The translations under genes were made by a program, and so were the position numbers. Below, one piece after another: positions 3,158-25,641 of a stretch of 64,000 nt of DNA; the stretch's first letter is position 1; each line of letters begins with the position of its first letter. Source of the stretch: Caballeronia novacaledonica (GTDB lineage: Bacteria; Pseudomonadota; Gammaproteobacteria; Burkholderiales; Burkholderiaceae); contig NZ_OGTP01000001.1 of assembly GCF_900258035.1 (NCBI RefSeq), forward strand, positions 558,001 to 622,000. Direction: 5' to 3'. The notes beneath the pieces were generated by a model that saw only the letters and a list, made by a program, of their open reading frames with translations, had not been told where the DNA came from and searched no databases.

Positions 3158-4480
3158 TCACCGCTCGACAGTCATTCGTTGTGCCGTATCGGCCGCGTTG
3201 TCATCGAGTGTGTGCGCGTATGCGATGTCGTTGACGCGTGGCGCCCACTTTCTCCGCAGCAATACGATGGCGCTCGTCGCGCCCAGCAGCAGAAACGCGA
3301 AAATCGCCAGCATCGGCAGCGTATAGCTGTGCCCCACATGCAGCAGCCAGCCGGACAGACTCGCCGAGACGCCACCCGCGAGACTCGTCGCCACTTGCTG
3401 CAAGCCCGTATTCAGGCCGACGGCCTGCTTCGGAATCAACGTGAGCTTGACCAGCGCCAGATTGTTCGCGGTGACGAGGCCGAGCAGAGAAAGCGAGACG
3501 ACATTCCAGAACAACGCCATCTGCGGCGAGCGGCTCAAGGCGCCGAGCAACACCGTCGTGCCGCCGACGAATCCGCCTGCGATGAACGATTTGCGCACCA
3601 GCACGGCGTCGTGTCCACGCGCGATGAGCCGGTCGGCTGCCCATCCCGCCAAGGCCGCGACGATGGCAATTCCCGCGAAGCTGAAGAAGGTGTAGAGGCC
3701 GGACTCCTGCAACGAAAGGCCGCGTTGTTCGACGAGATAAGCCGGCATCCACGTCATGCAGAAGAACGCGAAATAGCTATAGCAGAAGTTGGTGACCAGG
3801 CCGCCCCACACGACCGGGCTCGACAGCAGATTGCCGAGCGGCACCGACGCCGCCCTCCTCCTTGCAACCGCAAGCTCGGCCTTCGACGGGAAATCGTTAT
3901 CGAGAATGAGCAGCCAGGGGATCAGCCAGATCAATCCGGCCAGACCCGTCACGACGAACATGCCCTTCCACGAACCGATCGCGATCAGCCATGCCGCGAT
4001 CGGCGCACCGAGCGCCGGCCCCATCTTCCCGCCAATGGAATAGAGCCCGAGCGCCGTGCCCTTGCACGTTTCATCGAAGTGATTCGCGAGGTACCGATAA
4101 GTCGCCGGAACCACGACGGATTCCGCCGCGCCGATCAGCAAGCGCACGAGGATCAGCGCCGACAGCGTGGTCACGATGCCCGTCACCGCCGCCGCGAGAC
4201 ACCACAACAGGAAACAGATCGCGTACGGCCATTTCACGCCGTAGCGATCGACGAGCCAGCCCATCGGCATTTGAAGCAGCCCGTAGGACCAGAACATCGC
4301 CGAGCCGAGCCAGCCACGTTCGACATGCGTCAGCGCAAATTCGTGCACGAACCGGTGATCCGCGAACGCGGCGGACATGCTCGTGCGATCCACTTGAGCA
4401 ATCATCAGCCCGAGCGCAAGCAACACGAGAATGGCCCAGCGGCGCCCGGGCCGCGCCCGAGTGCGTCGAGTGATCTCCAT
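3158..4480 (-). CDS. MFS transporter, anion:cation symporter type
   Basis: A 440-residue inner-membrane protein with about twelve hydrophobic segments and the ACS-family opening (LALGLMIAQVDRTSMS...), followed by the cytoplasmic loop WLVDRYGVKWPYA between helices 2 and 3. ACS transporters take up organic anions such as aromatic acids, hexuronates or tartrate by proton symport. GGAGA lies eight bases before the ATG. It is the last gene of the minus-strand run that begins at 10866, 51 bases after the decarboxylase-like gene, so it probably imports the substrate or an intermediate of that pathway. The locus also has a TctABC-type system, so two uptake routes serve it. Confidence 0.85.
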   Translation of the reverse strand: MEITRRTRARPGRRWAILVLLALGLMIAQVDRTSMSAAFADHRFVHEFALTHVERGWLGSAMFWSYGLLQMPMGWLVDRYGVKWPYAICFLLWCLAAAVTGIVTTLSALILVRLLIGAAESVVVPATYRYLANHFDETCKGTALGLYSIGGKMGPALGAPIAAWLIAIGSWKGMFVVTGLAGLIWLIPWLLILDNDFPSKAELAVARRRAASVPLGNLLSSPVVWGGLVTNFCYSYFAFFCMTWMPAYLVEQRGLSLQESGLYTFFSFAGIAIVAALAGWAADRLIARGHDAVLVRKSFIAGGFVGGTTVLLGALSRSPQMALFWNVVSLSLLGLVTANNLALVKLTLIPKQAVGLNTGLQQVATSLAGGVSASLSGWLLHVGHSYTLPMLAIFAFLLLGATSAIVLLRRKWAPRVNDIAYAHTLDDNAADTAQRMTVER

Positions 4481-4531
4481 GACTTCGTCTCCGATTTTTT
4501 TATTGTCGAGATCACGCTTCTCGCGAGGCGG

Positions 4532-5425
4532 TTATCCGAGCGAACCGGTTACGTCGTCGAACAGCTCGTCGACGGACAGACGACGCGGAATGATCTTCTG
4601 ATCGAGCGCCCAGTCGACCGCCAGTTGCAGCCCCTTGCGGTTCGCTTCCAGCCCGATCGGCGGAAACACGGCCGGAACGCTTTCGGCGCGCGACCGGCTC
4701 TCGACGACCATGCGATACAGCTCGCGAACGATATCGGGCCGCTCCTTCGACAGCTTCTCGTGCACCACGAACATATGGTTGATCGGCACGACACCGGTGC
4801 GCGCGAACCAGTCCTTCGCGGCGTTTTGCGCATCGGGGACGAGCGTGCGCACGCGCTCGTCCTTGGGCATGTCCTCACCGAGCAGCGCGGCGGCGAGTTC
4901 GCCATCGAGCATCATCTGCGGTATCGACGACCCCGCCGGCAAGCGCTGGCAGTTCTGCGGATCGCTGTACTCGGCGAGATGACCGTCGCCGAGCGTCATC
5001 CACGTGACCTTGTCGAGATCGACACCGTATTCGTGACGCAGGATGCCGCGAATCCACAGCGCCGTGGTCTGCGTGTAGGTGCGCACGCCGACCTTCCTGC
5101 CTTCGATGTCCTTCGGATCGAGCTGGCCGAAGTCGATGTTGTAGCCGGCGCAATGATGCTGGAAGCGCCCCGAGATCGGCGCGGGCAACAGGACATACGG
5201 CTTCCCATACGCCTTCGCCTGCAAAAACGTGACGATCGCGAGCTCACCGGCATCGAATTTGTTTTCGCGCACCATCGCCTTGAAGCCGTTGTGCGCGGGC
5301 GTCGGTCCGCAGAAGTCGAGCGTCACGAGGTCCGAGCTCACGCGCGAGTCGCGCATGGCCTTCGTCACCGCATACTCGGCCAGGTTGACGCGCAAGGTCG
5401 GCGCTTCGGTCTGCGTCGTTGTCAT
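4532..5425 (-). CDS. 4,5-dihydroxyphthalate decarboxylase-like protein (paralogue 2)
   Basis: A 297-residue protein with the periplasmic-binding-protein fold seen in 4,5-dihydroxyphthalate decarboxylase (Pht5 type). There is no signal peptide, which argues for a cytosolic enzyme and against a binding protein. Typical segments are GPTPAHNGFKAMVRE near residue 45, FDAGELAIVTFLQAKAYGKPY, and the hinge DPKDIEGRKVGVRTYTQTTALWIRG. The ATG at 5425 is chosen because AAGGAG stands eight bases before it; a GTG nine bases upstream would overlap that site. A diverged paralogue lies at 9895-10866 in the same run. The decarboxylase assignment rests on family resemblance; the true substrate is unknown. Confidence 0.75.
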   Translation of the reverse strand: MTTTQTEAPTLRVNLAEYAVTKAMRDSRVSSDLVTLDFCGPTPAHNGFKAMVRENKFDAGELAIVTFLQAKAYGKPYVLLPAPISGRFQHHCAGYNIDFGQLDPKDIEGRKVGVRTYTQTTALWIRGILRHEYGVDLDKVTWMTLGDGHLAEYSDPQNCQRLPAGSSIPQMMLDGELAAALLGEDMPKDERVRTLVPDAQNAAKDWFARTGVVPINHMFVVHEKLSKERPDIVRELYRMVVESRSRAESVPAVFPPIGLEANRKGLQLAVDWALDQKIIPRRLSVDELFDDVTGSLG

Positions 5426-5470
5426 GGTTTTCACTCCTTTTGCTTGCTCTTTTCGATTCGGACTACCAAT

Positions 5471-7021
5471 TTAAAGTCTGACTTCGATCAGACACGGCCC
5501 CGGCTCGCGCGTCGAATCGACGAGCGCCTTGTAAAAGCGCTCCGCCGTATCGACCGCGACGGCCGGCACGCCCATGCTCTTCGCCATCGCCAGCCAGTCG
5601 ATGCTTGGCTTGTCGATGTCGATCATCGACAGCGCGCGTTCGCCCGGCGCGCCCGCGCCCATGTTGGCGTACTCGGCCTTGAGGATCGCGTAGCTGTTGT
5701 TCGCGAAGATGATGGTCGTCACGTTCAGCCCTTCGCGCGCCTGCGTCCAGAGCGACTGAATGGTGTACATCGCGCTGCCGTCGCCGACCATGCAGAACAC
5801 GCGCCGGTCCGGACACGCCAGCGCCGCGCCCGTCGCCACGGGTGTCGCGTAACCGATCGAACCGCCCATGTTGTTGATGAGATCGTGCGGAAGCCCGCCC
5901 ATCGTCAGGCTCATGGATTCGCGTCCCGTCGTCAGCGACTCATCCACGACGATGCAATGCTCGGGCAACGCCGCCGCCAGTGCGTGCGCGATGCTCGCCG
6001 GGTTGAGCGCGCCCGTGGGTACCGGCGTCTCGATGCGCGGCTGCAGAACCGGCGCAACGTGGGGTGCGCCGAGCGCCTGCAACAGCATGTCGAACGCGAG
6101 TTCGCTGTCTTCGTCGGCCTCGACGAGCGTATGCACGAGCGTGCCTTCGGCCTTGAGCAGGCTCGGCTTGTCCGGGTACGCGAAGAACGCCACCGGCTCG
6201 CGCGTCTCGACCGTGATGATGTGCCTGAAGTCCTTGAGGAACGCCGTGGCCTGCGCGACCGCATACGGAATGCGCGCGATCGGCACACGCCCCGCGCCGC
6301 GCTCCAGGCGCGCGGTGAAGAATTGCGAGCCCAGCACCGCGCCGGTCGCGGCGGCCACGCGGCCGGCCTTCTCGAGCGCGCCGCCGCGTGTCGCCTTGTT
6401 CGCGAGGACGATCAGCGCCGGCTCGCCCGAGCGCAGCACGCGCACGACATGCTCGATGCGTGCGGCGCCCGGCGCTTTGCGCGCAGCGGTGCGAACCGGC
6501 GGCGCTGCGGGCGTCGCGCTCACGGCCTGCCAGGATGTGTCGCCGGGCAAAATCAGCGTGGCGATCTGTCCCGGATGCTCGCTCGCCTTCGCGACGGCCT
6601 GAGCCGCGTCCCACGCGATCGTGTCCGGCGACTCCGCGCGGCGCACCCAATGGCACAGCGGCCGCGCCAGGCCCTCGATGTCCGAGGTCAGCGGCGGATC
6701 GTACTTCAGGTGCGACACCGAATGCTCGCCGACGACATTCACCATGCCCGACGACGCGCGCTTCGCGTTGTGGATGTTCGCGAGGCCATTGGCGAGACCC
6801 GGACCGAGATGCAGCAGGGTCGAAGCGGGCGTGTCCTTCATGCGATACCAGCCGTCGGCGGCGCCGGTGGCCACGCCCTCGAACAGGCACAGGACGCTGC
6901 GCATCTTCGGGTTGTTGCCGAGCGCGGCGAGAAAATGCATCTCCGACGTGCCCGGATTGGCGAAGCAAATGTCCACGCCCTGCCCGACCAGGGTCGCGAC
7001 GAGACTGTCGGCGCCGTTCAT
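5471..7021 (-). CDS. Thiamine diphosphate-dependent enzyme (acetolactate synthase/benzoylformate decarboxylase family)
   Basis: A 516-residue protein with the three-domain layout of ThDP enzymes. The N-terminal pyrimidine-binding domain has the glutamate that activates the cofactor (CLFEGVATGAADGW, near residue 49). The C-terminal domain has the Mg/ThDP motif GDGSAMYTIQSLWTQ through NNSYAIL near residues 400-435. No FAD-linked acetolactate synthase hallmarks are evident, so a 2-oxoacid decarboxylase or carboligase is as likely as an acetolactate synthase. Its start codon shares one base with the stop of the upstream aldolase gene (TGATG), a sign of translational coupling. An aldolase that releases a 2-oxoacid feeding this enzyme would make sense, but that is inference. 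Confidence 0.8.
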   Translation of the reverse strand: MNGADSLVATLVGQGVDICFANPGTSEMHFLAALGNNPKMRSVLCLFEGVATGAADGWYRMKDTPASTLLHLGPGLANGLANIHNAKRASSGMVNVVGEHSVSHLKYDPPLTSDIEGLARPLCHWVRRAESPDTIAWDAAQAVAKASEHPGQIATLILPGDTSWQAVSATPAAPPVRTAARKAPGAARIEHVVRVLRSGEPALIVLANKATRGGALEKAGRVAAATGAVLGSQFFTARLERGAGRVPIARIPYAVAQATAFLKDFRHIITVETREPVAFFAYPDKPSLLKAEGTLVHTLVEADEDSELAFDMLLQALGAPHVAPVLQPRIETPVPTGALNPASIAHALAAALPEHCIVVDESLTTGRESMSLTMGGLPHDLINNMGGSIGYATPVATGAALACPDRRVFCMVGDGSAMYTIQSLWTQAREGLNVTTIIFANNSYAILKAEYANMGAGAPGERALSMIDIDKPSIDWLAMAKSMGVPAVAVDTAERFYKALVDSTREPGPCLIEVRL

Positions 7022-7878
7022 CAGTAGCCTGCCAGTTCGCGTGCGAGTCCGACCACGCCGTAAGTGCGCGCCGGCGCCGACATCAGGAAGCGATAACCTT
7101 CCTCCTGCAACCGGCGATGGTTCTTGGCCGTGACATGCGGATTACCGACGACGACCTTGTGCTTGCGGCAGGTATCGGCGATCTGCCGCATCGCGGCGAC
7201 GACTTCCGGATGCTCGTACTGACGCGGCAAGCCGAGTTCCTGGCTGAGATCGCCCTCGCCGATCAGAATGAAGCCGATGCCCGGCACATTGGCGAGGATA
7301 TCGTCGAGATTGTCGATGGCCTGCGTGCTCTCGCACATCAGCCCGACGAGGATTTCGCCCTGCGGCGCGAGCGGCCAGACATCGGCTTTCTCGTAGTAGT
7401 CCTGCATCGAGAGGCCCCAATAGCGCGCCGCGTTCGCCGGGCCGTCGCCGCGCACGCCCTTCGGTTCGTAGAGCGGCGCGTGCTTCGGGCGCGCATAGCG
7501 GCAGGACGCGACCGCGTTGTAGGCCTGCTCGACGGTCGCCACGTGCGGCCAGATCACGCCGTACGCGCCGCGATCGAGCACCTGCTTGGCGAAGCTCTGG
7601 TTCATCTCGACGCCGTTCGCGGGAATCCGCGCGATCGGCGTCACCTTGGGCGCCACCGATCCCGATTCGGCAATCTGCTTGCGGCTCAACATGTACTGCA
7701 ATGCATCGCCGAGCGCGCTCACGTCATAGGGGTTGTGCTCCATCTCGAACACGATGCCGTCATAGGGCGAATCGCTCATTTCGATGGCGGTCTGCCTGTC
7801 GAGCTTGGCGAAGGCGGCGTGCGCGGCCTTGCCCGACTCGAAGGCGCGGATGATGCTGTTCAGGCGGATGTTGGACAT
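7021..7878 (-). CDS. HpcH/HpaI family aldolase/citrate lyase
   Basis: A 285-residue class II aldolase of the HpcH/HpaI family, which splits 4-hydroxy-2-oxo dicarboxylates into pyruvate and an aldehyde or oxoacid using a divalent metal. Family cues are FEMEHNPYD near residue 45, the metal-ligand glutamate region LVGLMCESTQAIDNLDDI near residue 185, and the glycine-rich IGEGDLSQELG. The start MSNIRLNSIIRAFE is taken because the long upstream extension in this frame is unlike the family. Next to a LigJ-type hydratase, which makes 4-carboxy-4-hydroxy-2-oxoadipate, it could replace the usual LigK-type aldolase and yield pyruvate plus oxaloacetate; this is inference. Confidence 0.83.
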   Translation of the reverse strand: MSNIRLNSIIRAFESGKAAHAAFAKLDRQTAIEMSDSPYDGIVFEMEHNPYDVSALGDALQYMLSRKQIAESGSVAPKVTPIARIPANGVEMNQSFAKQVLDRGAYGVIWPHVATVEQAYNAVASCRYARPKHAPLYEPKGVRGDGPANAARYWGLSMQDYYEKADVWPLAPQGEILVGLMCESTQAIDNLDDILANVPGIGFILIGEGDLSQELGLPRQYEHPEVVAAMRQIADTCRKHKVVVGNPHVTAKNHRRLQEEGYRFLMSAPARTYGVVGLARELAGY

Positions 7879-7975
7879 GGTGATCTCTCTGTCTCGCGCG
7901 GCCGCAGTCTCGTCGGCGGCATGCGCGGTTGCCAGGATTCGAGTGGATTCGAGTGGATTCGCGATGCTTCGGCGC

Positions 7976-8821
7976 TCAGCGCAAAGCGGGATAGAGCTTC
8001 TGCGCGGTCTTGCCGAAGATCCACGCGCGGTCGTCTTCGTCGAGGCAGGCGAGCCCTTGCTCGGCCGTCGCGAGGATCTCGCCGAGCGTGCCGGGCGATG
8101 TCGGGAAATTCGAACCCCACGCAAGACGCCCGGCGCCGAATGCCTCGACCACGCGCGGGAAAAACGTCCCGGCGCTCGCCTTGTCCTTCTTCACGTCGCC
8201 GAAGATGCGCGGCGTGAGCTTCATGTAGATGTTCGGCAGGTCGCGCAATTCGAACAGGCTGGCGGCGTTCGCATACGGCGGGCCGTCGAGCACGTCGGGA
8301 CGCGCGAGGTGATCGAGGATGATGTTCACCGCCGGAAACCTCTCCGCGAGCATGCGCACTTGCGGCAGGCCGACCGGTCCGGTCTGGATGCACATCGGCA
8401 GCTTCAGTTCCGCGAGCATCTCCCACGCCTTGAACGACTTGGGATTGTCGAGTTCGCTGGGATCGAAGTCTTTCGTCGATCCGCCCGTGAAGATGCGCAG
8501 GCCGGCAAGGCCTTGATCGGCCCAGCCTTTGATGACCGCCGGGACGTCGTCGGCGAGCATGTCCACGGAACCGACGGCGACGAGGCGGTCCTTGTACCGG
8601 TTGCAGCCATCGACGACATAGCGGTTGTCGAAACCGTACGTGGTCGAGGAATGCACGACCGCCGCCTTGGCGACGCCCGCTTCGTCCATGGCCGCGATCA
8701 GCGACTCGACCGTGTTGGGTCTTTCCTGCGACCAGTCCGAGCGCTTGCCGAAGAGCGGCGCGGGCGGATAACGCGTCTCGTCATCCGAGACGATATGAGG
8801 ATGAATGTCGATGATATTCAT
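7976..8821 (-). CDS. Amidohydrolase family protein (paralogue 1)
   Basis: A 281-residue metal-dependent hydrolase of the amidohydrolase-2 group. The start MNIIDIHPHIVSDD holds the first metal-binding HxH. VVHSST, then PMCIQTGPVG and ILDHLARPDV (second histidine), and WGSNFP near the C-terminus follow the family order. Members include 2-pyrone-4,6-dicarboxylate lactonase (LigI), 4-oxalomesaconate hydratase and aromatic amino-acid decarboxylases, so hydrolysis of a lactone, hydration or decarboxylation are all possible. It sits 24 bases after the LigJ-type gene. A close relative is encoded at 14737-15591 in the partner operon, with the same HSSTTYG and KLTPR/KITPR signatures. Confidence 0.8.
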   Translation of the reverse strand: MNIIDIHPHIVSDDETRYPPAPLFGKRSDWSQERPNTVESLIAAMDEAGVAKAAVVHSSTTYGFDNRYVVDGCNRYKDRLVAVGSVDMLADDVPAVIKGWADQGLAGLRIFTGGSTKDFDPSELDNPKSFKAWEMLAELKLPMCIQTGPVGLPQVRMLAERFPAVNIILDHLARPDVLDGPPYANAASLFELRDLPNIYMKLTPRIFGDVKKDKASAGTFFPRVVEAFGAGRLAWGSNFPTSPGTLGEILATAEQGLACLDEDDRAWIFGKTAQKLYPALR

Positions 8822-8845
8822 GGTGTCCGTCCGGCTCTCGCCGTA

Positions 8846-9871
8846 TCACAGTCCTTTGGCCTTGAGGTGCTGGTCCAGCCGCGGATACACGCGCCGCGCA
8901 TTGCCTTCGAAGATGGCATGGCGATCGGCTTCGCTCAGCGCTTCGCATGCATCGATGTAGCGTTTGGTGTCGTCGAAATACTCGCCCGTGTCCGGATCGC
9001 GCCCGCGCACCGCGCCGATCATCTCCGAGCCGAACAGCACGTTGCTCGTCGGCACGACCTTGGTCAGCAGTTCCACGCCCGGATGGTGATAGACGCAGGT
9101 ATCGAAATAGATGTTGTTGAGCAGGCCTTCGAGCGGACGTTTCGCCATCTCCAGCGACATGCCGCGATAACGGCCCCAGTGATACGGCACCGCGCCGCCG
9201 CCGTGCGGAATGACGAGACGCAGCGTCGGGAAGTCCTTGAACAGATCGCCCTGGAGCAGTTGCATGAATACCGACGTATCGGCATTCAGATAGTGCGCGC
9301 CGGTGCCGTGATGACACGGATTGCACGAAGCCGCGACGTGGATCATGGCGGGCACGTCGAGATCGCACAGCGCCTCGTAGAGCGGATACCACTCGCGATC
9401 GGTCATCGGCTTGCCGGTCCAGTAGCCGCCGCTCGGATCGGGATTCAGATTGCAGCCGACGAAGCCCATCTCTTCGACGCAGCGGCGCAGTTCGGCCACC
9501 GAGTTCTTCGGCGGCGCGAGCGGCGACTGCGGCAACTGGCACACGGGCACGAAGTTGTCCGGATACAGGTCGCACACGCGCCGCACGAGATTGTTCGACA
9601 CTTCCGCCCATTCGAGGCTCGTGCGCTCGTTGCCGAGGTGATGACTCATGAGACCGGCGATCGGCGAGAACAGCGTCAGGTCGCCGCCGCGTTCCTGCTG
9701 CAGGCGCAACTGGCCGTTGCCCACGCCTTCGCGGATGTCGTCGTCGCTGACGTGGGCGCCTGTGAGCGGCGGCGCGTTGGCCGGATCGTTGGCCGAGTCG
9801 ATCTGTTTCGCGCGCCAGTCGCGAAACGAAGCGGGAACGGTCGTGAAGTGACCGTGGCAATCGATGATCAT
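8846..9871 (-). CDS. ligJ: 4-oxalomesaconate hydratase (LigJ type)
   Basis: A 341-residue amidohydrolase-fold protein that closely follows LigJ of the protocatechuate 4,5-cleavage pathway as I remember it. It opens MIIDCHGHFTT and has LTLFSPIAGLMSHHLGN, the block NLNPDPSGGYWTGKPMTDR near residue 165, the HVAASCNPCHHGTGAHYLNAD segment in the middle, VIPHGGGAVPYHWGR, and the end EGNARRVYPRLD. LigJ hydrates 4-oxalomesaconate to 4-carboxy-4-hydroxy-2-oxoadipate. AGGAAC precedes the ATG. No protocatechuate 4,5-dioxygenase (ligAB), LigC or gallate dioxygenase is visible in the window, so the upstream steps either lie elsewhere or the hydratase serves a different tricarboxylate. Confidence 0.85.
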   Translation of the reverse strand: MIIDCHGHFTTVPASFRDWRAKQIDSANDPANAPPLTGAHVSDDDIREGVGNGQLRLQQERGGDLTLFSPIAGLMSHHLGNERTSLEWAEVSNNLVRRVCDLYPDNFVPVCQLPQSPLAPPKNSVAELRRCVEEMGFVGCNLNPDPSGGYWTGKPMTDREWYPLYEALCDLDVPAMIHVAASCNPCHHGTGAHYLNADTSVFMQLLQGDLFKDFPTLRLVIPHGGGAVPYHWGRYRGMSLEMAKRPLEGLLNNIYFDTCVYHHPGVELLTKVVPTSNVLFGSEMIGAVRGRDPDTGEYFDDTKRYIDACEALSEADRHAIFEGNARRVYPRLDQHLKAKGL

Positions 9872-9894
9872 GTTCCTGGCTTTCCGTGTGAGAT

Positions 9895-10866
9895 TTAGAC
9901 GCGGGGATCGACGAACAGCTCGCTCATGGACATGCGGCGCGGCGTCAGCCCCTGTTTGAAGGCGGTCGCTTCCAGCGCTTCGATGGTCTTGCGGTTTTCC
10001 TCGATGCCATAGGGCAGCGGATCGTGACCGACGATCTTGCGCAGTTCCAGATACTTCTTGTTCTTCTTGTCGTTCAGTTCGCCCGAGTCGAGCTTCCTGA
10101 GCCAGTCTTGCTTGGCTTTATCGAACGCGTCGTAGATCGACTTCGCCACCCACGGATGCTCGGCCAGCACCGAATCCTTCACGACGATGGTGCCGTGCAT
10201 CGGATATACGCCGGTGCGGGCGTAGTATTCGGCTTCGAGTTCTTCCGCGTTCGGGAACAGATCCGGATAATCCGCTTCGACTTCTTTCCAGCCGCCCGTC
10301 GGCGCGCCGGTGCGGCCGATGCCCGCGTTGCCGTGCATCCCCGCCACCAGTTCGCCCTTCTCCATCATCTCGGCGAGCGAGCTGCCTTCGGGTGCGTGAA
10401 TCACGTTCGGCGGCAGCTCGAGTTGCGTGACGTGTTCTTCGTCATCGACGACCCACGTCACCTTCGACGGATCGAGGCCGAATTCATCCATCAGCACCTG
10501 GCGCGTCCATGCGCCGGTCGTGACCGAGTACGCGCGCACGCCGACCTTCTTGCCTTCGAGGTCCTTGGGCGTCTTGATGCCCGCGTCCGGACGCACCAGC
10601 AAACCCGAGTGGTGAAAGCGGCGCACCACGAAAATGGGCAGCGCGACGAACGGCGCGCCATACGCGCGGGCGATGATGTACGTCGTCGGCGCAAGCTCGC
10701 ACACGTCGAACTCGACGTCGCGAACCATGCGGCGAAACGCGCCGATCTGCGGCTGAACCGTGATGAACTCGGCATCGACGCCTTCGATCGGAATCGAGCC
10801 ATCGCGAATCGCGGCAGTGTGCGGGTGCTCGGCGATGGCGAGCGTGAGGTGAACCTTCTTGGTCAA
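9895..10866 (-). CDS. 4,5-dihydroxyphthalate decarboxylase-like protein (paralogue 1), TTG start
   Basis: A 323-residue protein of the same family as 4532-5425 but more typical: FRRMVRDVEFDVCELAPTTYI, then FVVRRFHHSGLLV, the hinge PKDLEGKKVGVRAYSVTTGAWTRQ near residue 105, and a C-terminus ending SMSELFVDPR. It has no signal peptide. The start codon is TTG, six bases after a strong AAGGAG. Family members decarboxylate 4,5-dihydroxyphthalate to protocatechuate; many relatives are mislabelled as ABC binding proteins. It is the first gene of the run 10866 to 3158 and lies 134 bases from a large palindrome that probably controls the run. The exact substrate is unknown. Confidence 0.8.
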   Translation of the reverse strand: MTKKVHLTLAIAEHPHTAAIRDGSIPIEGVDAEFITVQPQIGAFRRMVRDVEFDVCELAPTTYIIARAYGAPFVALPIFVVRRFHHSGLLVRPDAGIKTPKDLEGKKVGVRAYSVTTGAWTRQVLMDEFGLDPSKVTWVVDDEEHVTQLELPPNVIHAPEGSSLAEMMEKGELVAGMHGNAGIGRTGAPTGGWKEVEADYPDLFPNAEELEAEYYARTGVYPMHGTIVVKDSVLAEHPWVAKSIYDAFDKAKQDWLRKLDSGELNDKKNKKYLELRKIVGHDPLPYGIEENRKTIEALEATAFKQGLTPRRMSMSELFVDPRV

Positions 10867-10999
10867 CTTAGTCTCCTTGGGAAAGTCGCTTGTGCGGCTC
10901 GTGCGGGCTTCGGCGGCGGTTGCCGGGCTCGGGTGATCTCGTTGACAACATGATCTTCCCGTGCCCGTCGGACGTCTATTGAATTAACCCGCGCGTCAC

Positions 11000-11034
11000 T
11001 TAACCATTTGGTAAAGGCATTACCGTTTGGTTAA
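11000..11034. promoter_or_regulatory. 35-bp palindromic LysR-type operator
   Basis: Two 15-base arms, TTAACCATTTGGTAA and TTACCGTTTGGTTAA, face each other across AGGCA. Each arm reads TTACC-N5-GTTAA on one strand. The same motif, or a close variant, is found at 16890, 17916 and 20396 in front of other units of this locus. It lies directly behind the stop codon of the LysR gene 11035-12012 and 134-168 bases before the decarboxylase-like gene. It is therefore a strong candidate operator for the run 10866 to 3158, bound by one or both LysR twins. Confidence 0.75.
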
Positions 11035-12012
11035 CTACTCGGCGCCCAACGGTTGCTGAAGGCGTTTCGACCTCTCGGAACCCGGCTCCAAAAGCCGGGC
11101 CGCTTCTTCGAGACACGCGATCATGAGTTGCGCACTGGGCGACAGCGTCCGGTTGCGATTCCACAGCACGCCCGCCGGCCGCAACAATCGCGGCAGGCTC
11201 AAGGGAAGCGTATGGAGCGGCTGGGAAGTATCGCTGGCGGGCGTGCCGGCCATCACCGCAATGAAGTCCGAGATCTGCAGATGCGCCCGCGCGACGTGCA
11301 CGGAAAGCGTCTCGATGTAATTGCTGGTCAGCGGCACGTCGTGCGCTTCGAGCGCCCGCTCCAGCGGATCGCGCAGGATCGAGCCGGGCGGCGGCAGTAT
11401 CCACGGATAAGGATGCAGGTCCGCCCACGACAGGCTCTTTCTGCGCGCCAGCGGATGATGACGGCCGGTCATCAGCGTGACAGGTTCTTCCAGAAGCTCT
11501 TTTTCTTCGAAGCTGCCGAGCGTATCCGGCGCGGGCAGCCGGCCCACGACGAGATCGAGACGGCCCTGCCACAACTCCGGAAGCAGTGACGCCTTCGTGC
11601 CTTCGATCACCATCACATTGGTGCCGGGCGATCGATGCTTGAGCAGGCTCAGCGCCTGAGGCAGCAGCGCCGACGCCGACGCCGGCAACATGCCGATATG
11701 AACCTTGCCTTCCGTTCCCGAACTGAGCGCTTTAAGCTCGTCGCGCGCCTGATTCAGAATCGTCAGCATCTCGCGTGCGTGGCGAATCAGGCAGTCGCCA
11801 TAAGGTGTGGGCACGAGGCCCTGCGCGGTGCGCGAAAAAAGCGTCAGTCCGATGCCGCGTTCGAGTTCGGCAAGCGACTTCGATACGGCTGGCAAGGTCA
11901 CGTGCGTGACATCGGCCACTTGCGTCAGATTGCGATATGTATCGATCGTCACGAGCAGGCGCAGATGGCGCGCCTTGAGGTTGATCTGCAGATACCAGTC
12001 GAGCCCTGACAC
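11035..12012 (-). CDS. LysR family transcriptional regulator (twin 1)
   Basis: A 325-residue LysR regulator. The winged helix-turn-helix spans about residues 15-75 (HLRLLVTIDTYRNLTQVADVTH, then VSKSLAELERGIGLTLFSRT), followed by a linker and a substrate-binding co-inducer domain. The start is GTG, eight bases after GGGAGG. It is nearly the twin of 16935-17891: the DNA-binding domains differ at only a handful of positions, so both probably bind the same operator. Subtle differences in the ligand domain may give each a different inducer. It sits 43 bases after the carboxymuconolactone decarboxylase-like gene and is probably the last gene of the tctC operon, directly before the palindrome controlling the next operon. 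Confidence 0.88.
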   Translation of the reverse strand: MSGLDWYLQINLKARHLRLLVTIDTYRNLTQVADVTHVTLPAVSKSLAELERGIGLTLFSRTAQGLVPTPYGDCLIRHAREMLTILNQARDELKALSSGTEGKVHIGMLPASASALLPQALSLLKHRSPGTNVMVIEGTKASLLPELWQGRLDLVVGRLPAPDTLGSFEEKELLEEPVTLMTGRHHPLARRKSLSWADLHPYPWILPPPGSILRDPLERALEAHDVPLTSNYIETLSVHVARAHLQISDFIAVMAGTPASDTSQPLHTLPLSLPRLLRPAGVLWNRNRTLSPSAQLMIACLEEAARLLEPGSERSKRLQQPLGAE

Positions 12013-12055
12013 GTCATGTTCCTCCCAAGGTCACGTTTGCCGCAGCACGATGTCG

Positions 12056-12583
12056 TCAGTCCTTGGGTTCGAGCGCGTGCAAGGTCATGCCGAGCGATAT
12101 CGACGTGAAGTAGCCGATCGTGACGAGCAATTCGGCGATCACGGCGCGTCCGAGGCCGGTCTCGTAGCGGGAAAAACGCGCATCGTCGATCGCGCCGCCC
12201 GCGAGGATGTCGGAGACTGCGTCGCAGATCAGACCAAGTCGTCCAACTCCTTCGGGACGCCGCCTGTCGATGATGGCCGTCACCACAGCCTCCGGCACAC
12301 CGGATTTCAGCGCGTGACGGCGATGGTTCGCGATGACGTACGGCGCATTCCAGAAGACCGCCGTCGAGAGAATCGCCACTTCGCTTTCCGCTTCGCTCAA
12401 CACGGGCGATGCGTCGACATGCGTGCCGATGATTTCCATCCCTTCGGCAAGACGCGGATTGTGCAGCCAGATGTTGAACGGCGTCGGGATGCGCCCGCGC
12501 CCTTCGCCCAGTCGCGCGATGACCTTCTTCTGTTCTTCGCTCGCCTGCCCGGCGTCGATATGCGCGAGTCGATTGTCCGCCAT
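12056..12583 (-). CDS. Carboxymuconolactone decarboxylase family protein
   Basis: A 175-residue all-helical protein of the CMD/AhpD-like group. The alignment core is visible: GRIPTPFNIWLHNPRLAEGM near residue 35, SEVAILSTAVFWNAPYVIANHRRHALKSGV near residues 70-100, where many members have E..CH, and a C-terminal ELLVTIGYF. The redox CxxC of AhpD proteins is absent, so a peroxidase role is unlikely. Members decarboxylate 4-carboxymuconolactone or act on other cyclic or lactone acids; the substrate here is unknown. The ATG at 12583 is preferred over one 15 bases upstream because AAGGA stands before it. It lies 33 bases behind tctAB. Confidence 0.72.
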   Translation of the reverse strand: MADNRLAHIDAGQASEEQKKVIARLGEGRGRIPTPFNIWLHNPRLAEGMEIIGTHVDASPVLSEAESEVAILSTAVFWNAPYVIANHRRHALKSGVPEAVVTAIIDRRRPEGVGRLGLICDAVSDILAGGAIDDARFSRYETGLGRAVIAELLVTIGYFTSISLGMTLHALEPKD

Positions 12584-12616
12584 GCTGTTTCCTTCCATTG
12601 AGAGAGACTGAACGGC

Positions 12617-14656
12617 TCAGGCACCGCCGCCCAGGGCGGGAAACCATTGCCCGAGGAAGCTGTCCGGCCACGGAATGTGGATGATCCGATCGAAGACCAG
12701 ATAGAGAAAAACGGTCACGCAAGCCGCGAGAATCAGGCTCAGACGCCACGACTCGCGTCCCTCGATCCGCATGTACGCGACGATCATCAGCGGTACGGTC
12801 GGGATCATCCCGATCACCGACATGCACGCGAGAAACGCAACAAACCACCCGAAGAACCTTGCCGCGCGCGTCAGGGTGACCTTGTTCGACAGCTTTTCGC
12901 CGTGATCGGCGGCCACGTCCATGTGGATGCCGGCGCCCGCGTGCGCCGCGCCTGCCTGCGCCGGAATCATGAAGATCTTGTACGCGAGGCTCACGCTCGC
13001 CGCGATGACCAGAATGCTCGCGACGACCGTCGGCCCGATTCGCGCCATGAGGAGCCAGCCTTGCGCCGTCAACAGCATATAGACGCCGACGACGAGGAAG
13101 AACACATAAACCAGATCCTCGCGCTCGAACGCGATCTTTCCGCTCGGGCGCAGCCGTGCAAAACCGCCTGTGCGCAGCGCATTGAAGAGCGGCTTGAAGA
13201 AGACGAGCGCCGCCAGAATCAGAAGGACCATCACGACGGGGCGCGTGAGCCAGTCGGTCCCGTAGCGCACGAAGGAAATCGACATGTAGCGTTCCATCAG
13301 CACGCCGAGCACGAGACCGAGGATCAGCGGCGGCCGCGCCCACTTCAGGCGTTTCATCGTCCAGCCGATCACCCCGGCGATCAGCAACACGAAAAGGTCG
13401 CCCCAACTGCGCGAGCCCTGAAACGCGCCGACATAGATGACCGGCATGATGACCGGCAAAATGAGCGTGTAGCGCAGCGTCGAAATCTTGGCGAACTGCC
13501 CGCTGAGCAGGAAGCACAAGCCCGCGCCGAAGATGTTGGCCAGCGCGATGGACCACACCATCGAATAGGTGAAGTCGAGATGCTTGGTCAGCATGTCGGG
13601 TCCGGGAATGAAGCCGTGAACCATCATCGCGCCGAGCAGGATGGCCTGCGCGGCGCCGCCCGGCACGCCGAAGGACAACATCGGCACGAGGCTGCCGCCC
13701 TCTCTCGCATTGTTCGCCGCTTCGGGCGCGATCACGCCGCGCACGTCGCCCGTCGTGAAGGTCTGCTTCGCGCCCTTCGCGGTCTGCAGCGCGTGACCGT
13801 AGACGATCCAGTCCGTCACCGCGCCGGTGATGCCCGGAACGGCCCCGAGCACCGCCCCGAGCCCGCCGCAGCGAAGCACGAGAAACCAGTTGCGCAGGCT
13901 GTCGACGACGCCCTGCCGCATCCCCTGGCGCGACGTGAACTGCATGTTTTCCGCGATGGCCGTGCGGCGGATGGCGAGCTCGCACAACTCGGGCAGCGCA
14001 AAGATGCCGAGGATGATCGGCACGAGCGGAATCCCGTCCTGGAGATACAGGATGTCGCCGGTCCAGCGCATCTGGCCCGTCGCGACATTCGTTCCCACCA
14101 TCCCGACGAGGATGCCGAAGCACGCCGCGACCACGCCCCGCAGCGGCGCGTTGCCCGAGAGCGCCGACACCATCGAGACGCCGAAGATCGTCAGCCCCAG
14201 CATTTCCGGTGTGCCGATGGACAGCACGAAAGGCCGCACGAGCGGCAGCGATACGGCGAGGATGACGGCGCCGATCAGCCCGCCCATCAGCGACGACATG
14301 TAGCAAGCGCTCAACGCGCGCGATGCTTCTCCGCGTTTGGTCATCGGCAGGCCGTCGAGCACTGTCGCCTGCGATGCCGCGTGACCCGGCACGCCGAAGA
14401 GCACCGCCGGGATCACGTCCGAAGTCGTGATGACCGACGCCATGCCGAGCAGCATCGCGAATGCGGCATACGGGTCCATCGTGTAGGTGAACGGCACGAG
14501 AAGCGCGAAGCCCGTCAGCCCGCCGATGCCCGGCAGCAGTCCGATCGCCAGCCCGACCACCACGCCGAACACGAGGAAGATCAGGCGGTTGAACTGCAAG
14601 AGCGTCGACAGCGCATGGCCTGCTGCCAACAGCGTTGCATCGTTGAAGAATTCCAT
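12617..14656 (-). CDS. Tripartite tricarboxylate transporter permease, TctA-TctB fusion
   Basis: A 679-residue membrane protein. Residues 1 to about 500 are the large TctA permease, with the two repeated glycine motifs GLLPGIGGLTGFAL near residue 40 and GAVPGITGAVTDW near residue 270, plus the FGVPGGAAQAILLGAMM segment. From about residue 510 to the end there are further membrane helices and a hydrophilic loop with the look of the small TctB subunit, which is normally a separate gene. Together with TctC (15686-16726) it would form a complete proton- or sodium-driven importer for di- or tricarboxylates. AGGA precedes the ATG. The fusion is read directly; the TctB nature of the end is inference. 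Confidence 0.82.
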   Translation of the reverse strand: MEFFNDATLLAAGHALSTLLQFNRLIFLVFGVVVGLAIGLLPGIGGLTGFALLVPFTYTMDPYAAFAMLLGMASVITTSDVIPAVLFGVPGHAASQATVLDGLPMTKRGEASRALSACYMSSLMGGLIGAVILAVSLPLVRPFVLSIGTPEMLGLTIFGVSMVSALSGNAPLRGVVAACFGILVGMVGTNVATGQMRWTGDILYLQDGIPLVPIILGIFALPELCELAIRRTAIAENMQFTSRQGMRQGVVDSLRNWFLVLRCGGLGAVLGAVPGITGAVTDWIVYGHALQTAKGAKQTFTTGDVRGVIAPEAANNAREGGSLVPMLSFGVPGGAAQAILLGAMMVHGFIPGPDMLTKHLDFTYSMVWSIALANIFGAGLCFLLSGQFAKISTLRYTLILPVIMPVIYVGAFQGSRSWGDLFVLLIAGVIGWTMKRLKWARPPLILGLVLGVLMERYMSISFVRYGTDWLTRPVVMVLLILAALVFFKPLFNALRTGGFARLRPSGKIAFEREDLVYVFFLVVGVYMLLTAQGWLLMARIGPTVVASILVIAASVSLAYKIFMIPAQAGAAHAGAGIHMDVAADHGEKLSNKVTLTRAARFFGWFVAFLACMSVIGMIPTVPLMIVAYMRIEGRESWRLSLILAACVTVFLYLVFDRIIHIPWPDSFLGQWFPALGGGA

Positions 14657-14736
14657 GCGTCATCCTGATTAAATGGCAAGCTCGGTAGGCTCACGCTGTA
14701 GTGGGTCCAACACAAATCGAGCGCTTCAAGCCTGAA

Positions 14737-15591
14737 TCAGCCGGCGAGCATCGGATACAGCACCTTCGCCGTGCGGCCCCAGACCCACGCGCGCTCGTCG
14801 TCGCTCAGGCTCGCGAAGCACGCCTGTCCCTGTTCGATCAGCTTCTTCAACGGCCCCGCGGATGCCGGATAGTTCGAACCGAACGCCAGATGATCGGCGC
14901 CGAACACTGTCACCAGTTGCGGGAAAAAAGCATCCGCGCCGCCCGGCGCCGCCTGCGCGAGATCGAACGTACGCGGCGTGATCTTCATGTACACGTTGTC
15001 GTACTTCGACAACTCGAACAACGCCGCGCAGCGCGCATACGGCGGTCCGTCTTCGATGTCGGGGCGGCCGCAGTGATCGAGCGCGATCTTCACGGTGGGA
15101 AAACGTCCGGCGAGTTCCGCGACCATCGGGAGGCCATCGGGTGTCGTCTGCACGGCCATCGTCATGCCGATTTCGGCGCAGCGTTCCCAGACCGGAAAGG
15201 TCGCCGGATCGACGAGCCAGCTTCCGTCGCTCTGATGCGTCGCGCCGCCCGTGAACAGCCGGATGCCGCCCATGCCGTGCGCGAGCCAGTAGTCGAACGT
15301 CTTCAGCGCGTCCGGCGCCAGAAGGTCGAACGAATAGACGCCCGTGAAGCGCTTCGGGTCCTGCGCCACGCTGTCGGCCACGTAGGCGTTGTCGGCGCCG
15401 TAAGTCGTCGACGAATGCACGATCGCGGCCTTCGCGACGCCGGCTTCGTCCATCTCCGCGATCATCTGCTCGAACGTGACGGGACGCGTGGCCGACCACT
15501 TCGAGCGATGTCCGTGTTGCGGCGCAATCGGATAGCGCACCGTGTCCGTCGAGATGATGTGCGGATGAATGTCGATGATTTCAGGCGTCAT
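14737..15591 (-). CDS. Amidohydrolase family protein (paralogue 2)
   Basis: A 284-residue amidohydrolase-2 protein related to 7976-8821. The start MTPEIIDIHPHIISTD carries the metal-binding HxH; AAIVHSSTTYGADN, ALDHCGRPDI, VYMKITPR and FGSNYPASAGPL follow in the same order as in the paralogue. The ATG at 15591 follows GAGG and fits the family start; a 42-codon extension upstream does not. The gene lies between tctC and tctAB, so its product probably acts on the imported acid or an early intermediate. Lactone hydrolysis, hydration or decarboxylation are possible. Having one paralogue per operon suggests two related substrates or two successive steps. Confidence 0.8.
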   Translation of the reverse strand: MTPEIIDIHPHIISTDTVRYPIAPQHGHRSKWSATRPVTFEQMIAEMDEAGVAKAAIVHSSTTYGADNAYVADSVAQDPKRFTGVYSFDLLAPDALKTFDYWLAHGMGGIRLFTGGATHQSDGSWLVDPATFPVWERCAEIGMTMAVQTTPDGLPMVAELAGRFPTVKIALDHCGRPDIEDGPPYARCAALFELSKYDNVYMKITPRTFDLAQAAPGGADAFFPQLVTVFGADHLAFGSNYPASAGPLKKLIEQGQACFASLSDDERAWVWGRTAKVLYPMLAG

Positions 15592-15685
15592 GTGAGGTGA
15601 CCTCTTGGTGATGGGTTCGGACGAGAACCGCCGGGCCGCGCATCGGTGCGACGGCACGCGGATCGTTCGTCGTGTTTCAGCCGGT

Positions 15686-16726
15686 TCAGTGAGAACTGAA
15701 GATGAGCTTTCGCGCATCCGCGAGCTGCGGCTCGGGCGTCGCGTATAGCTTGGTCACGATCTGTTCCACCGCGTTGCCGTCGATGGGATCGATCGGATAG
15801 CCCGATTGCTTCATCGCGTCGATGAAGTCCGGGTCCGCGATGGTCTTCGCGAAAGCATCGCGCAACGCATCCAAGCGGGCTTGCGGCACGCCCTTGGGCA
15901 CCGCGATCGGACGGCCCGCCTGGAACGGCAACAGAAAGAGGTTGAACAGCGCCTTGACGTCGGGATCGGTGATGTAGGCGCTCAGGTTCGGCACGTCGGC
16001 GTAGGCGGCCGGACTCTTCCAGCCGAGATGCAGCAACACCTTCATCTTGCCGTTGGCGAGCATCCGCACGGGTTCGCCCTGCTGCAGGCCGTCGATGGTG
16101 GAAGCCCAGCCATCGACTTCGCCACGCTGCATCGCCAGATAAACTTCGCCGCGTCCGGTGTAGCCGGGCACGATGCTCATCTTCGCGCCGAGATATTCGT
16201 CGAGCAGCGCGGGCAGCGTTCTGTCCTCGTTCGCGAAGCCGGTCGCGCCGATGTACATCTTCTTTCTGGTGAGATCGTCGGCGGAGGTGACGCCCGAGCG
16301 CGTCATCGAAACCAGGCAATATTCGACCTTGTTGAGACTGCCGAGCCATCGGACCTGACGCGGATCGAAGCGGTTCTGACGCTGATCGAGCAGCGGAAGA
16401 TAGAGGTTGTTGCGCTGAAGAAAGCCGATGACCGTGCCATCGCTCGCCTGTCTGGACTGGAGCGACGCGGCCGCGACCATGCCGCCCGCGCCGACCACGT
16501 TCATCACGATGGCTTTCGGATGACCGGGCACGTATTTGACGAAGAAGCGCGAGAACTGACGCGCGATGATATCGGTCGGCGTGCCCGCATCGGCGCTGAC
16601 GACGAGCGTGAGCGCCTTGCCCTTGTAAAACTGCTCCACCGATTGATCGGACGCGGTCCCGGCAAGCGCCGTCGCGGCAAAACTGAACAGCGCCGCGCAA
16701 GCGCAGATTGCGGTCCGGTAGTTCAT
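15686..16726 (-). CDS. Tripartite tricarboxylate transporter substrate-binding protein (TctC/Bug type)
   Basis: A 346-residue periplasmic binding protein starting MNYRTAICACAALFSFAATALAG, a Sec signal peptide. The mature part shows the Bug/TctC pattern: YKGKALTLVVSADAGTPTDIIARQF early on, VVGAGGMVAA near residue 85, the ligand loop around GATGFANED near residue 170, and a late IADPDFIDAMKQSGYP. AGGA lies before the ATG; a longer in-frame reading upstream has no such site. It captures a carboxylate for the TctA-TctB fusion encoded two genes downstream. Its promoter region resembles that of the porin at 19097-20236 over 80 bases, so the outer-membrane and periplasmic steps are probably switched on together. 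Confidence 0.85.
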   Translation of the reverse strand: MNYRTAICACAALFSFAATALAGTASDQSVEQFYKGKALTLVVSADAGTPTDIIARQFSRFFVKYVPGHPKAIVMNVVGAGGMVAAASLQSRQASDGTVIGFLQRNNLYLPLLDQRQNRFDPRQVRWLGSLNKVEYCLVSMTRSGVTSADDLTRKKMYIGATGFANEDRTLPALLDEYLGAKMSIVPGYTGRGEVYLAMQRGEVDGWASTIDGLQQGEPVRMLANGKMKVLLHLGWKSPAAYADVPNLSAYITDPDVKALFNLFLLPFQAGRPIAVPKGVPQARLDALRDAFAKTIADPDFIDAMKQSGYPIDPIDGNAVEQIVTKLYATPEPQLADARKLIFSSH

Positions 16727-16828
16727 GGTCGTCCTGTCTCCGTGTTTTGATTCGCCATCCGTGCTCGAGGCCCGCCGGAGACGCATCTGTCCCCGATGGT
16801 GGATCGCGCTGACGTTCGTATTCGAGTG

Positions 16829-16908
16829 AACGCAGTCAAATTCTGCCAGCGCCGCAAAACGAATCAATTGAGAAAAAACGCCAGCGAGTTGAGCAAACGG
16901 TTAAGCGG
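16829..16908 (-). promoter_or_regulatory. Promoter/operator region of the tctC operon, shared with the porin promoter
   Basis: Eighty bases here match 20335-20414 without a gap at about 62 positions by eye. Reading toward tctC (minus strand), a -35 TTGATT at 16862-16867 and a -10 AGAATT at 16839-16844 are 17 bases apart. The operator variant TGAGC-AAACG-GTTAA at 16890-16904 would be centred near -65, the classic site for a LysR activator. The distance to the tctC start is about 100-180 bases. Confidence 0.65.
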
Positions 16909-16934
16909 AGCGGAACGCGCTCGGCGCGCGGGTG

Positions 16935-17891
16935 TCAGCGCGTGCCCTGTCCTTCTTGCGCGAGACGCTGGGCGGTTTCTTCGAGACAGGCGATCATCAG
17001 GCGGGCGCTCGGCGTCAGGCCGCGCACGCGATTCCAGAGTACGCCCGCTGGCCGCAACAGGCGCGGCAGGCTCAGTGGAAGCGTATGCAGCGGTTGCGGC
17101 TGGGTGGTGTCGTTGGCGGCCGTATCGGCCATCACGGCGATGCAGTCCGAGACCTGCAGATGCGCGCGCACCACGTGGACCGAAAGCGTTTCGATGTAGT
17201 TGTTGGTGAGCGGAACTTCGTGCGCTTCGAGCGCCCGTTCCAGCGGATCGCGAAGAATGGAGCCTACGGGCGGCAGTATCCACGGAAAGGGATGCAGGTC
17301 CGCCCATGTCAGGGTTTTCCTTCGCGCCAGCGGATGATGCCGGCCCGTCACGAGCGTCACGGGCTCTTCGAGAAGTTCCTTTTCTTCGAAGCTTCCGAGC
17401 GTGTCGGGCGGAGGCAGACGACCGACGACCAGATCGAGATGCCCTTGCCAGAGCTCGGGCAGCAGCGATCCCGTCGTGCCTTCGATGACCGTCACGTTCG
17501 TGCCCGGCGAGCGCTGTTTGAGCAGGCTCAGCGCTCGCGTCAGCAGCACCGACGCCGACGCGGGCAACATGCCGATATGAACCTTGCCCTCCGTCCCCGA
17601 ACTCAGCGCCTTCAGTTCGTCGCGGGCCTGATGGAGGATCGTCAGCATCGATTTCGCATGACGCACGAGGCATTCGCCATAGGGCGTGGGCACGAGTCCC
17701 TGCGTGGTGCGCGAAAAGAGCGTGAGCCCGAGCCCTCGTTCGAGTTCGGCCAATGACTTCGACACGGCCGGCACGGTCACGTGCGTGACTTCGGCGACCT
17801 GACTCAGATTGCGATACGTGTCGATGGTGACGAGCAGTCGCAGGTGTCGGGCCTTCAGGTTGATCTGCAGGTACCAATCGAGTTCCGACAC
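16935..17891 (-). CDS. LysR family transcriptional regulator (twin 2)
   Basis: A 318-residue LysR regulator, the close twin of 11035-12012. The N-terminal helix-turn-helix (HLRLLVTIDTYRNLSQVAEVTH, VSKSLAELERGLGLTLFSRT) is almost the same, and the ligand domain is also highly alike (GTEGKVHIGMLPASAS in both). The start is taken as the GTG at 17891, eight bases after GAGG and matching the twin; a GTG three codons earlier touches the ribosome site. It is divergent from the Tat-exported binding protein gene, with the motif TTACC-AACTC-GTTAA between them at 17916-17930, so self-control and control of the neighbour are likely. Confidence 0.88.
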   Translation of the reverse strand: MSELDWYLQINLKARHLRLLVTIDTYRNLSQVAEVTHVTVPAVSKSLAELERGLGLTLFSRTTQGLVPTPYGECLVRHAKSMLTILHQARDELKALSSGTEGKVHIGMLPASASVLLTRALSLLKQRSPGTNVTVIEGTTGSLLPELWQGHLDLVVGRLPPPDTLGSFEEKELLEEPVTLVTGRHHPLARRKTLTWADLHPFPWILPPVGSILRDPLERALEAHEVPLTNNYIETLSVHVVRAHLQVSDCIAVMADTAANDTTQPQPLHTLPLSLPRLLRPAGVLWNRVRGLTPSARLMIACLEETAQRLAQEGQGTR

Positions 17892-17915
17892 GTCGTGCAC
17901 CTCTCCGAAGGGGTT

Positions 17916-23670: not shown

Positions 23671-23680
23671 GCGAGCGTCC

Positions 23681-25186: not shown

Positions 25187-25197
25187 CAAGGTGTCTC

Positions 25198-25641
25198 CTA
25201 GTAATGTTCGGGGACGGCGTTCACGCCGTTCTCCTGCAATTCCTTCACGAGCTTCATGCGTGTGCGCGCAACATCGGTGAGCGCGGGACGGCGATGCGCC
25301 GCGATCTCTTCCGCCGTGTACGGCTTGAACGATGTGGGCCGCGAATGCTCGTTCATCGTTGCGAGCAGCCAGTTCAGGACGTTCGCGAGTTCGGCATCGC
25401 TGAGTGCCGAGTTCGACGCGCCGGGCACGCTCATCACGAAGCGGCGCCCATCCGGAAGCGAAACGAAATGGCCGAGCGATTCGCGCAAGGCCGGGACTTT
25501 GCCGGGAATGCCCGAACCATCGGCGGTATGGCATCCCATGCAATTGAGCACCCAGTCCTGACGCGCGCGCGCCTCGTCGTATGCCTGTGCCTGCGACGCG
25601 GCCACCAGAGCGAATGCGGCAAGCACAGCGCGCGGCTTCAT
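25198..25641 (-). CDS. Periplasmic c-type cytochrome, monohaem (second in operon)
   Basis: A 147-residue protein with signal peptide MKPRAVLAAFALVAASQAQA and one haem-binding motif, CMGCH, near residue 34 of the precursor. A methionine ligand candidate lies in RFVMSVPGASNS near residue 68. The C-terminal third is polar and charged. It probably carries electrons away from the quinone cofactor of the amine dehydrogenase, alone or with the neighbouring cytochrome. Its start overlaps the stop of the upstream cytochrome gene by four bases (ATGA). Alcaligenes uses azurin for this task; no azurin-like gene is present here. Confidence 0.85.
   Translation of the reverse strand: MKPRAVLAAFALVAASQAQAYDEARARQDWVLNCMGCHTADGSGIPGKVPALRESLGHFVSLPDGRRFVMSVPGASNSALSDAELANVLNWLLATMNEHSRPTSFKPYTAEEIAAHRRPALTDVARTRMKLVKELQENGVNAVPEHY

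Follow-up and report, generated by a model that had tools for sequence, protein, structure and literature searches.

A conserved catabolic gene array with exchangeable front ends in Caballeronia novacaledonica

The gene array and its enzyme families

We analysed a 64,000-nucleotide stretch of the Caballeronia novacaledonica genome (contig NZ_OGTP01000001.1, positions 558,001 to 622,000), referred to here as the window, for the gene array at its positions 3158-17900. A first-pass annotation had listed decarboxylase-like proteins, amidohydrolases, regulators and transporters in pairs, together with a hydratase, an aldolase and a thiamine diphosphate (ThDP) enzyme. Reading of the open reading frames and profile searches bore this list out, as 13 genes were found, all in one direction. 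Gene content, synteny, family membership, front-end exchange and residue changes were read directly from the sequences. The 13 genes are as follows.

3158..4480, minus strand: major facilitator superfamily (MFS) transporter; PF07690, 162 bits; nearest NCBIfam TIGR00893, under its cut-off
4532..5434, minus strand: DHPD2, dihydroxyphthalate (DHP) decarboxylase-like protein; no signal peptide seen by eye
5471..7021, minus strand: ThDP enzyme like benzoylformate decarboxylase (BFD); PF02775/PF02776, NF005760, BFD alignment
7021..7878, minus strand: HpcH/HpaI class II aldolase (HpcH); PF03328, 79.5 bits
7976..8821, minus strand: AH1, amidohydrolase with a distant likeness to LigI, the 2-pyrone-4,6-dicarboxylate (PDC) lactonase; PF04909
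8846..9871, minus strand: LigJ/GalB-type hydratase (LigJ), motif FSPIAG; 487 bits over 340 aa to PDB 2gwg
9895..10866, minus strand: DHPD1, 4,5-dihydroxyphthalate-decarboxylase-like protein; PDB 9jp7, 1.4e-45
11035..12012, minus strand: LysR1, PcaQ-like regulator; PF00126/PF03466; TIGR02424 208 bits, under the 303.8 cut-off
12056..12598, minus strand: carboxymuconolactone decarboxylase (CMD)-like protein; PF02627, 15.1 bits, E 0.024
12617..14656, minus strand: fused TctA-TctB membrane component (TctAB); PF01970, 399 bits; PF07331
14737..15591, minus strand: AH2, amidohydrolase, paralogue of AH1 (52%); PF04909
15686..16726, minus strand: TctC periplasmic binding protein; PF03401
16935..17900, minus strand: LysR2, twin of LysR1 (86% identical)

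The aldolase was assigned to the HpcH/HpaI class II family by PF03328 and by Arg84, Glu183 and Asp210, which we take to be the catalytic residues and which are kept in 76 of 76 aligned rows; its start codon was fixed from the codon score and the length in relatives. The ThDP enzyme aligns with BFD and retains Glu48 and His71, presumably the ThDP glutamate and the active-site histidine, in all 63 rows. DHPD1 and DHPD2 resemble 9jp7, a 4,5-dihydroxyphthalate decarboxylase, in sequence and fold; this is a family likeness, from which their activity is predicted. AH1 matched the PDC-hydrolase entries of the PDB with E values from 8e-6 to 6e-5. The CMD-like protein scored below the PF02627 cut-off of 23 bits and was not assigned to the CMD/AhpD family.

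The hydratase resembles LigJ and GalB over its whole length and keeps the presumed metal residues (His178 and Glu283 in 71/71 rows; His6 and His8 in 65/65 ungapped rows, with six rows gapped there). The FSPRAS motif, which is present in the solved oxalomesaconate hydratases PDB 2gwg and 6dxq, in the genome's own GalB and in the LigK-linked LigJs of loci L060 and L068 (the L060 LigK was identified by TIGR02798), is replaced by FSPIAG. Since the canonical arginine is isoleucine in 71/71 rows, it appears doubtful that the window LigJ acts on 4-oxalomesaconate itself.

A conserved core and two front ends

A search for DHPD2 across 299 genomes of the family gave some match at 1e-3 in 102 of them and a copy with at least 74% identity in 24. 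The neighbourhoods examined, including 79 named loci, share the core order DHPD1-LigJ-AH1-[x]-HpcH-(ThDP)-DHPD2. In most relatives, the order is DHPD1-LigJ-AH1-MFS-c8-HpcH-ThDP-DHPD2, kept in beta- and alphaproteobacteria, where c8 is a LigB-type protein. Within the 79 loci, some of them cut by contig ends, DHPD2 was counted in 79, HpcH in 75, AH1 in 74, LigJ in 70, DHPD1 in 68, the ThDP enzyme in 67 and c8 in 52. Neighbourhood conservation across Burkholderiaceae, the check proposed by the first-pass annotation, thus returned one core order, found also beyond the family in Oxalobacteraceae, Comamonadaceae, Sphingomonadaceae and others. The hosts belong to Caballeronia, Paraburkholderia, Burkholderia, Trinickia, Cupriavidus, Massilia, Duganella, Janthinobacterium, Herbaspirillum, Acidovorax, Rhodoferax, Pseudomonas, Sphingobium, Novosphingobium, Caulobacter, Nitrospirillum, Acetobacter and other genera. 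Many soil and plant bacteria therefore carry the same core, with a ring-opening-type enzyme or an acid-uptake system attached. Copies borne on plasmids were found in Acidovorax sp. DW039 and Diaphorobacter sp. HDW4B, and among the 71 operons placed in a tree, the one closest to the window operon is that of Caballeronia pedi (96% over three proteins). No consistent peripheral oxygenase was seen among the flank genes of the 79 loci (194 listed; short stretches judged by eye). Twelve of the 79 loci have no core ThDP gene; five of these (L104, L107, L110, L118, L170) have another ThDP-like gene by eye, which in four loci of one close clade directly adjoins an aldehyde dehydrogenase gene, giving modest support to a ThDP-aldehyde dehydrogenase link.

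The c8 protein has 328 residues, and its representative matches PF02900 (LigB family) with 46.1 bits against a cut-off of 26.3. The C. novacaledonica c8, located on contig 59 and 93% identical to the L050 query, also exceeds this cut-off and is thereby placed in the class III extradiol dioxygenase family. The predicted c8 structure is poor (mean predicted local distance difference test, pLDDT, of 50), yet DesB and LigB come first in matching, which lends weak support. Twenty-three of the 24 family genomes with DHPD2 at 74% identity or above have c8 at no less than 86%, and 22 hand-chosen genomes without such a DHPD2 gave no c8 match above 43%. The earlier statement that there is no ring-cleaving enzyme therefore holds for positions 3158-17900, but not for the genome, which has c8 on contig 59, nor for the relatives, where c8 lies in 45 of 71 operons.

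The neighbours of c8 on contig 59 are an aldehyde-dehydrogenase-like gene, paralogues of AH1 (75%) and of the MFS transporter (65%), a regulator of the AraC type, a propeller protein resembling lactonases and two exported proteins; those without a label were identified by eye. Within the 19.9 kb read around c8, the gene calls include no further LigJ, HpcH or DHPD. Because the c8 locus has AH1 and MFS paralogues but none of these core genes, the window locus and the contig 59 locus look complementary in gene content.

In the 71-operon tree, 45 operons have c8 beside HpcH, 18 have a Tct or AH2 gene in the locus, eight have neither and none has both. Some of the eight loci are cut by contig ends, and for one of them (L109) the genome of the same species has Tct genes on another contig. 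The c8 state switches at least seven times on supported branches, and the exclusion of c8 and Tct has a Fisher p of 5e-11 by raw count, relatedness ignored. The best reading is that the c8 type and the Tct type are two interchangeable entrances to one core. The two front ends on one core lend support to something like the two parallel branches first suggested. The LysR twins of the window bracket the CMD-TctAB-AH2-TctC block, and their 86% identity suggests that a recent duplication or gene conversion may have taken place.

The same genome harbors a gallate cluster on contig 42, composed of a full-length gallate dioxygenase GalA (72% to the annotated Acidovorax one), an MFS permease, GalB and GalC; gallate dioxygenase, GalB and GalC are not found together in the window. 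Because of this separate cluster, gallate is an unlikely substrate of the window genes and was rejected as the main reading. The only PrpF-family gene, which we take to be of the GalD/LigU type, lies on contig 64 and adjoins neither the window cluster nor the gallate cluster. Directly after GalC stands a small ModA-like binding protein (L077:13906-14595), in which no signal peptide is evident by eye. As the single PrpF-type gene sits on contig 64, the ModA-like protein is a candidate cytosolic tautomerase.

Proposed route and rival explanations

The cluster is a real, conserved catabolic cluster, and the missing ring-cleaving enzyme is explained by the exchangeable front end and the dioxygenase homologue elsewhere in the genome. 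We assign a probability of roughly 0.55 to the array being a catabolic unit in which a conserved core is joined to an exchangeable front end. It is best read as a lower pathway of the gallate/protocatechuate-4,5 kind, in a variant form with two exchangeable front ends, and the substrate acid is probably plant-derived.

We infer the reaction order, the role of each decarboxylase, the aromatic origin and the substrate as follows. The core (DHPD1, LigJ, AH1, HpcH, ThDP enzyme and DHPD2) would take in a 2-oxo acid of the ring-fission type that is unsaturated and carboxylated. Entry would be either by c8, with a catechol or gallol acid as its substrate, or by Tct-mediated import together with AH2; AH1, DHPD1/DHPD2, LigJ and HpcH would follow. 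In the window, the TctC-AH2-TctAB-CMD front end with the twin LysR genes would import a carboxylate or lactone, which would then be opened or modified; in the relatives, and on contig 59 here, the MFS permease and c8 would supply the core, starting from an acid of the catechol or gallol type. DHPD1 and DHPD2 would probably remove carboxyl groups, LigJ would add water, and HpcH would perform a retro-aldol cleavage to pyruvate or oxaloacetate and a partner. The ThDP enzyme would decarboxylate a 2-oxo acid product to an aldehyde, which an aldehyde dehydrogenase would then oxidise. The first-pass annotation had proposed an ending by LigJ and the aldolase, now supported by the LigJ/GalB-type hydratase and by an HpcH with its catalytic residues kept, as well as a ThDP step on a 2-oxoacid, supported by an enzyme that looks like a 2-oxoacid decarboxylase. 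Overall, its interpretation is upheld in part.

Several results weigh against this reading. The exclusion of c8 and Tct has only three informative independent pairs (sign test p 0.25), and c8 also occurs farther downstream in four Tct-type loci (L093, L098, L102, L138). From 17 genomes with a c8-less operon, searched with two extra genomes as positive controls and L101 left out, eight have c8 elsewhere (in one, L097, the operon is cut by a contig end) and nine have none. Three of these nine are metagenome bins, where absence is weak, and the core is rearranged in L160 (no DHPD1 seen) and L162 (distant AH). As a result of the nine genomes, c8 was rejected as an obligatory part and is taken as an optional entrance, and entry by a non-aromatic acid may occur. 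Moreover, of the 12 loci in which the core ThDP gene is missing, seven have no substitute in the stretch read.

The residues add to these objections. In c8, a glutamine replaces the second metal histidine of LigB and GalA in 54/54 rows, the first histidine being kept in 48/48 ungapped rows and the base histidine and the glutamate in 53/53. The metal ligands of class III extradiol enzymes are presumably two histidines and one carboxylate, and with glutamine at the second histidine position the dioxygenase activity of c8 is not assured. Likewise, the lactonase activity of AH1 and AH2 is not assured because they have asparagine (101/101 and 12/12 rows, duplicates of some genomes included) at what we take to be the active-site Asp248 of LigI, a position occupied by Asp in the wild-type structure 4d8l and by Asn in 4dia. 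Ten more distant AH proteins, some beside an FSPRAS LigJ and LigK, also have asparagine, which makes this change a weaker indicator of the substrate of the window genes; judged from the alignment, it is a trait of a wider amidohydrolase group. The changes in LigJ, c8 and the AH proteins call for caution on each single predicted activity, and those in LigJ and c8 argue for a putative substrate akin to, yet distinct from, oxalomesaconate.

An alternative that we consider rather unlikely is that the window cluster serves only an imported non-aromatic acid or lactone, such as a pyrone or a tricarboxylate, and that c8 belongs to a separate pathway sharing core genes by chance. The nine genomes without c8 fit this account, and so does the Tct-type front end occupying the place of c8 in the operon, as Tct systems are carboxylate importers; however, the presence of c8 in nearly all family genomes with a close DHPD2 and the complementary look of the two loci, with AH1 and MFS paralogues beside the own c8, speak against it. 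The 58% identity of the window LigJ to the own GalB, the LigB-type c8 and the LigI-like amidohydrolases would also be expected from a plain second copy of a gallate or protocatechuate 4,5-cleavage pathway, although the gallate cluster already stands on contig 42, family searches found no LigK, LigC or LigU/GalD types among the core genes, and LigJ and c8 deviate at conserved positions; a second copy is therefore improbable.

Equally improbable is a substituted gallol, a ring with a side group R derived, for example, from ellagic or hexahydroxydiphenic acid. Here c8 would yield R-oxalomesaconate, LigJ would hydrate it, HpcH would release oxaloacetate and R-pyruvate, and the ThDP enzyme would decarboxylate the R-pyruvate. 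This would account for the BFD-like ThDP enzyme and the lost LigJ arginine, and the plasmid copy of Acidovorax sp. DW039 has a subtype B tannase some 13 kb away, with a separate gallate dioxygenase on the same plasmid. However, tannase is missing from 45 of 46 genomes, including the own one, the single match being at noise level, and no result indicates a biaryl substrate; the tannin link was rejected as a general one and kept only within this alternative. Finally, a phthalate-type pathway, with the DHPD proteins acting as decarboxylases of dihydroxyphthalates, is very improbable: the likeness of both proteins to 9jp7 favors it, whereas the conserved core lacks a ring-hydroxylating oxygenase, and the DHPD homologue that does sit with Rieske-type genes (by eye) on contig 59 shares only 27-29% identity with DHPD2 and DHPD1.

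Returning to the core with an exchangeable front end, a more far-reaching form of this proposal is tentative and rather unlikely: a widespread novel route in plant-associated proteobacteria, in which the six-enzyme core would degrade a ring-fission-type acid other than oxalomesaconate, entered through the Gln-type LigB-like c8 or, free of oxygen, through Tct and the Asn-type amidohydrolase, and which possibly serves as the aerobic route for gallols from tannins (such as ellagic or hexahydroxydiphenic acid). Altered chemistry is a direct prediction from the residue changes, and one that can be tested. Public annotations call the genes of the operon ABC or phosphate binding proteins, protocatechuate 3,4-dioxygenase, acetolactate synthase or hypothetical proteins; assigning the substrate would name many such genes and could reveal how common phenolic acids of plants, or tannins, are broken down in soil.

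Neighboring genes and comparison with known systems

Two genes beside the array recur next to Tct-type clusters, and four further features were observed in the window.

18022..19038, plus strand: divergent NMT1-like binding protein with a twin-arginine translocation (TAT)-like signal; PF09084; TAT_signal under cut-off
19097..20236, minus strand: porin; PF13609
859-2498, plus strand: two genes for DhaL- and DhaK-like dihydroxyacetone kinase subunits, translation judged by eye
22456-29046, minus strand: methylamine-dehydrogenase heavy chain (PF06433), two small cytochromes c, aldehyde dehydrogenase and porin, which looks like an amine dehydrogenase system
39684-41576, plus strand: 630-residue frame in which a short-chain dehydrogenase domain comes after an amidase domain, apparently a fusion
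53676-55217, minus strand: Rieske-domain protein (PF00355), 513 residues

Related clusters were seen in other genomes. Five loci (L059, L062, L063, L065, L066) combine DHPD1- and DHPD2-like genes, HpcH and a more distant LigJ, also with FSPIAG, with a glyoxalase-type extradiol dioxygenase homologue, a short-chain dehydrogenase/reductase and fumarylacetoacetate hydrolase-family genes. A smaller cluster (L060, L061, L064, L067-L070) comprises a DHPD2-like protein, an amidohydrolase of the AH kind and, judged by eye, a DctA-like carrier; L060 and L068 additionally have an FSPRAS LigJ and a LigK-type aldolase.

The first-pass annotation recognised no known protocatechuate 4,5, gallate or phthalate cluster in the array, in agreement with our search of the open-access literature, which returned no description of this gene set; subscription papers and preprints lay outside it. 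In the passages considered from PMC11069340, the ifc cluster comprises an FAD monooxygenase, a putative glyoxalase, an alpha/beta hydrolase and cupins, some likened to fde (background in the passages considered from PMC11303751); PMC4440368 contained no match to the terms looked for. The ifc and fde clusters share with the window the setting of plant-compound clusters of soil Burkholderiales; on the same partial text, the ifc gene set differs from the window genes, and identity with a flavonoid cluster was rejected. The portions considered from PMC6362003 and PMC12314914 describe, respectively, an amidohydrolase-type decarboxylase in phthalate use, within a gene set different from that of the window, and a syringate route with Gal enzymes.

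Compared with the phthalate pathway that uses 4,5-dihydroxyphthalate decarboxylase (9jp7), the fold and family of DHPD1 and DHPD2 are shared, whereas the core here has two divergent copies within a LigJ operon and no phthalate oxygenase. The homoprotocatechuate meta pathway (HpaD-HpaI) proceeds through ring opening, decarboxylation, hydration and an HpcH/HpaI aldolase. This functional sequence is shared, but the decarboxylase and the hydratase are of unrelated families, and the core here has no semialdehyde dehydrogenase. With LigABCIUJK / Pmd, which we take to be the gene names of the protocatechuate-4,5 pathway, the system shares the LigJ/GalB hydratase, a LigI-like amidohydrolase, a LigB-type protein and the retro-aldol ending. 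It differs in having HpcH in place of LigK and no LigU/GalD or LigC gene, in reading FSPIAG for FSPRAS in LigJ, Gln for His in c8 and Asn for Asp in the AH proteins, and in adding two DHP-decarboxylase-like proteins and a ThDP enzyme.

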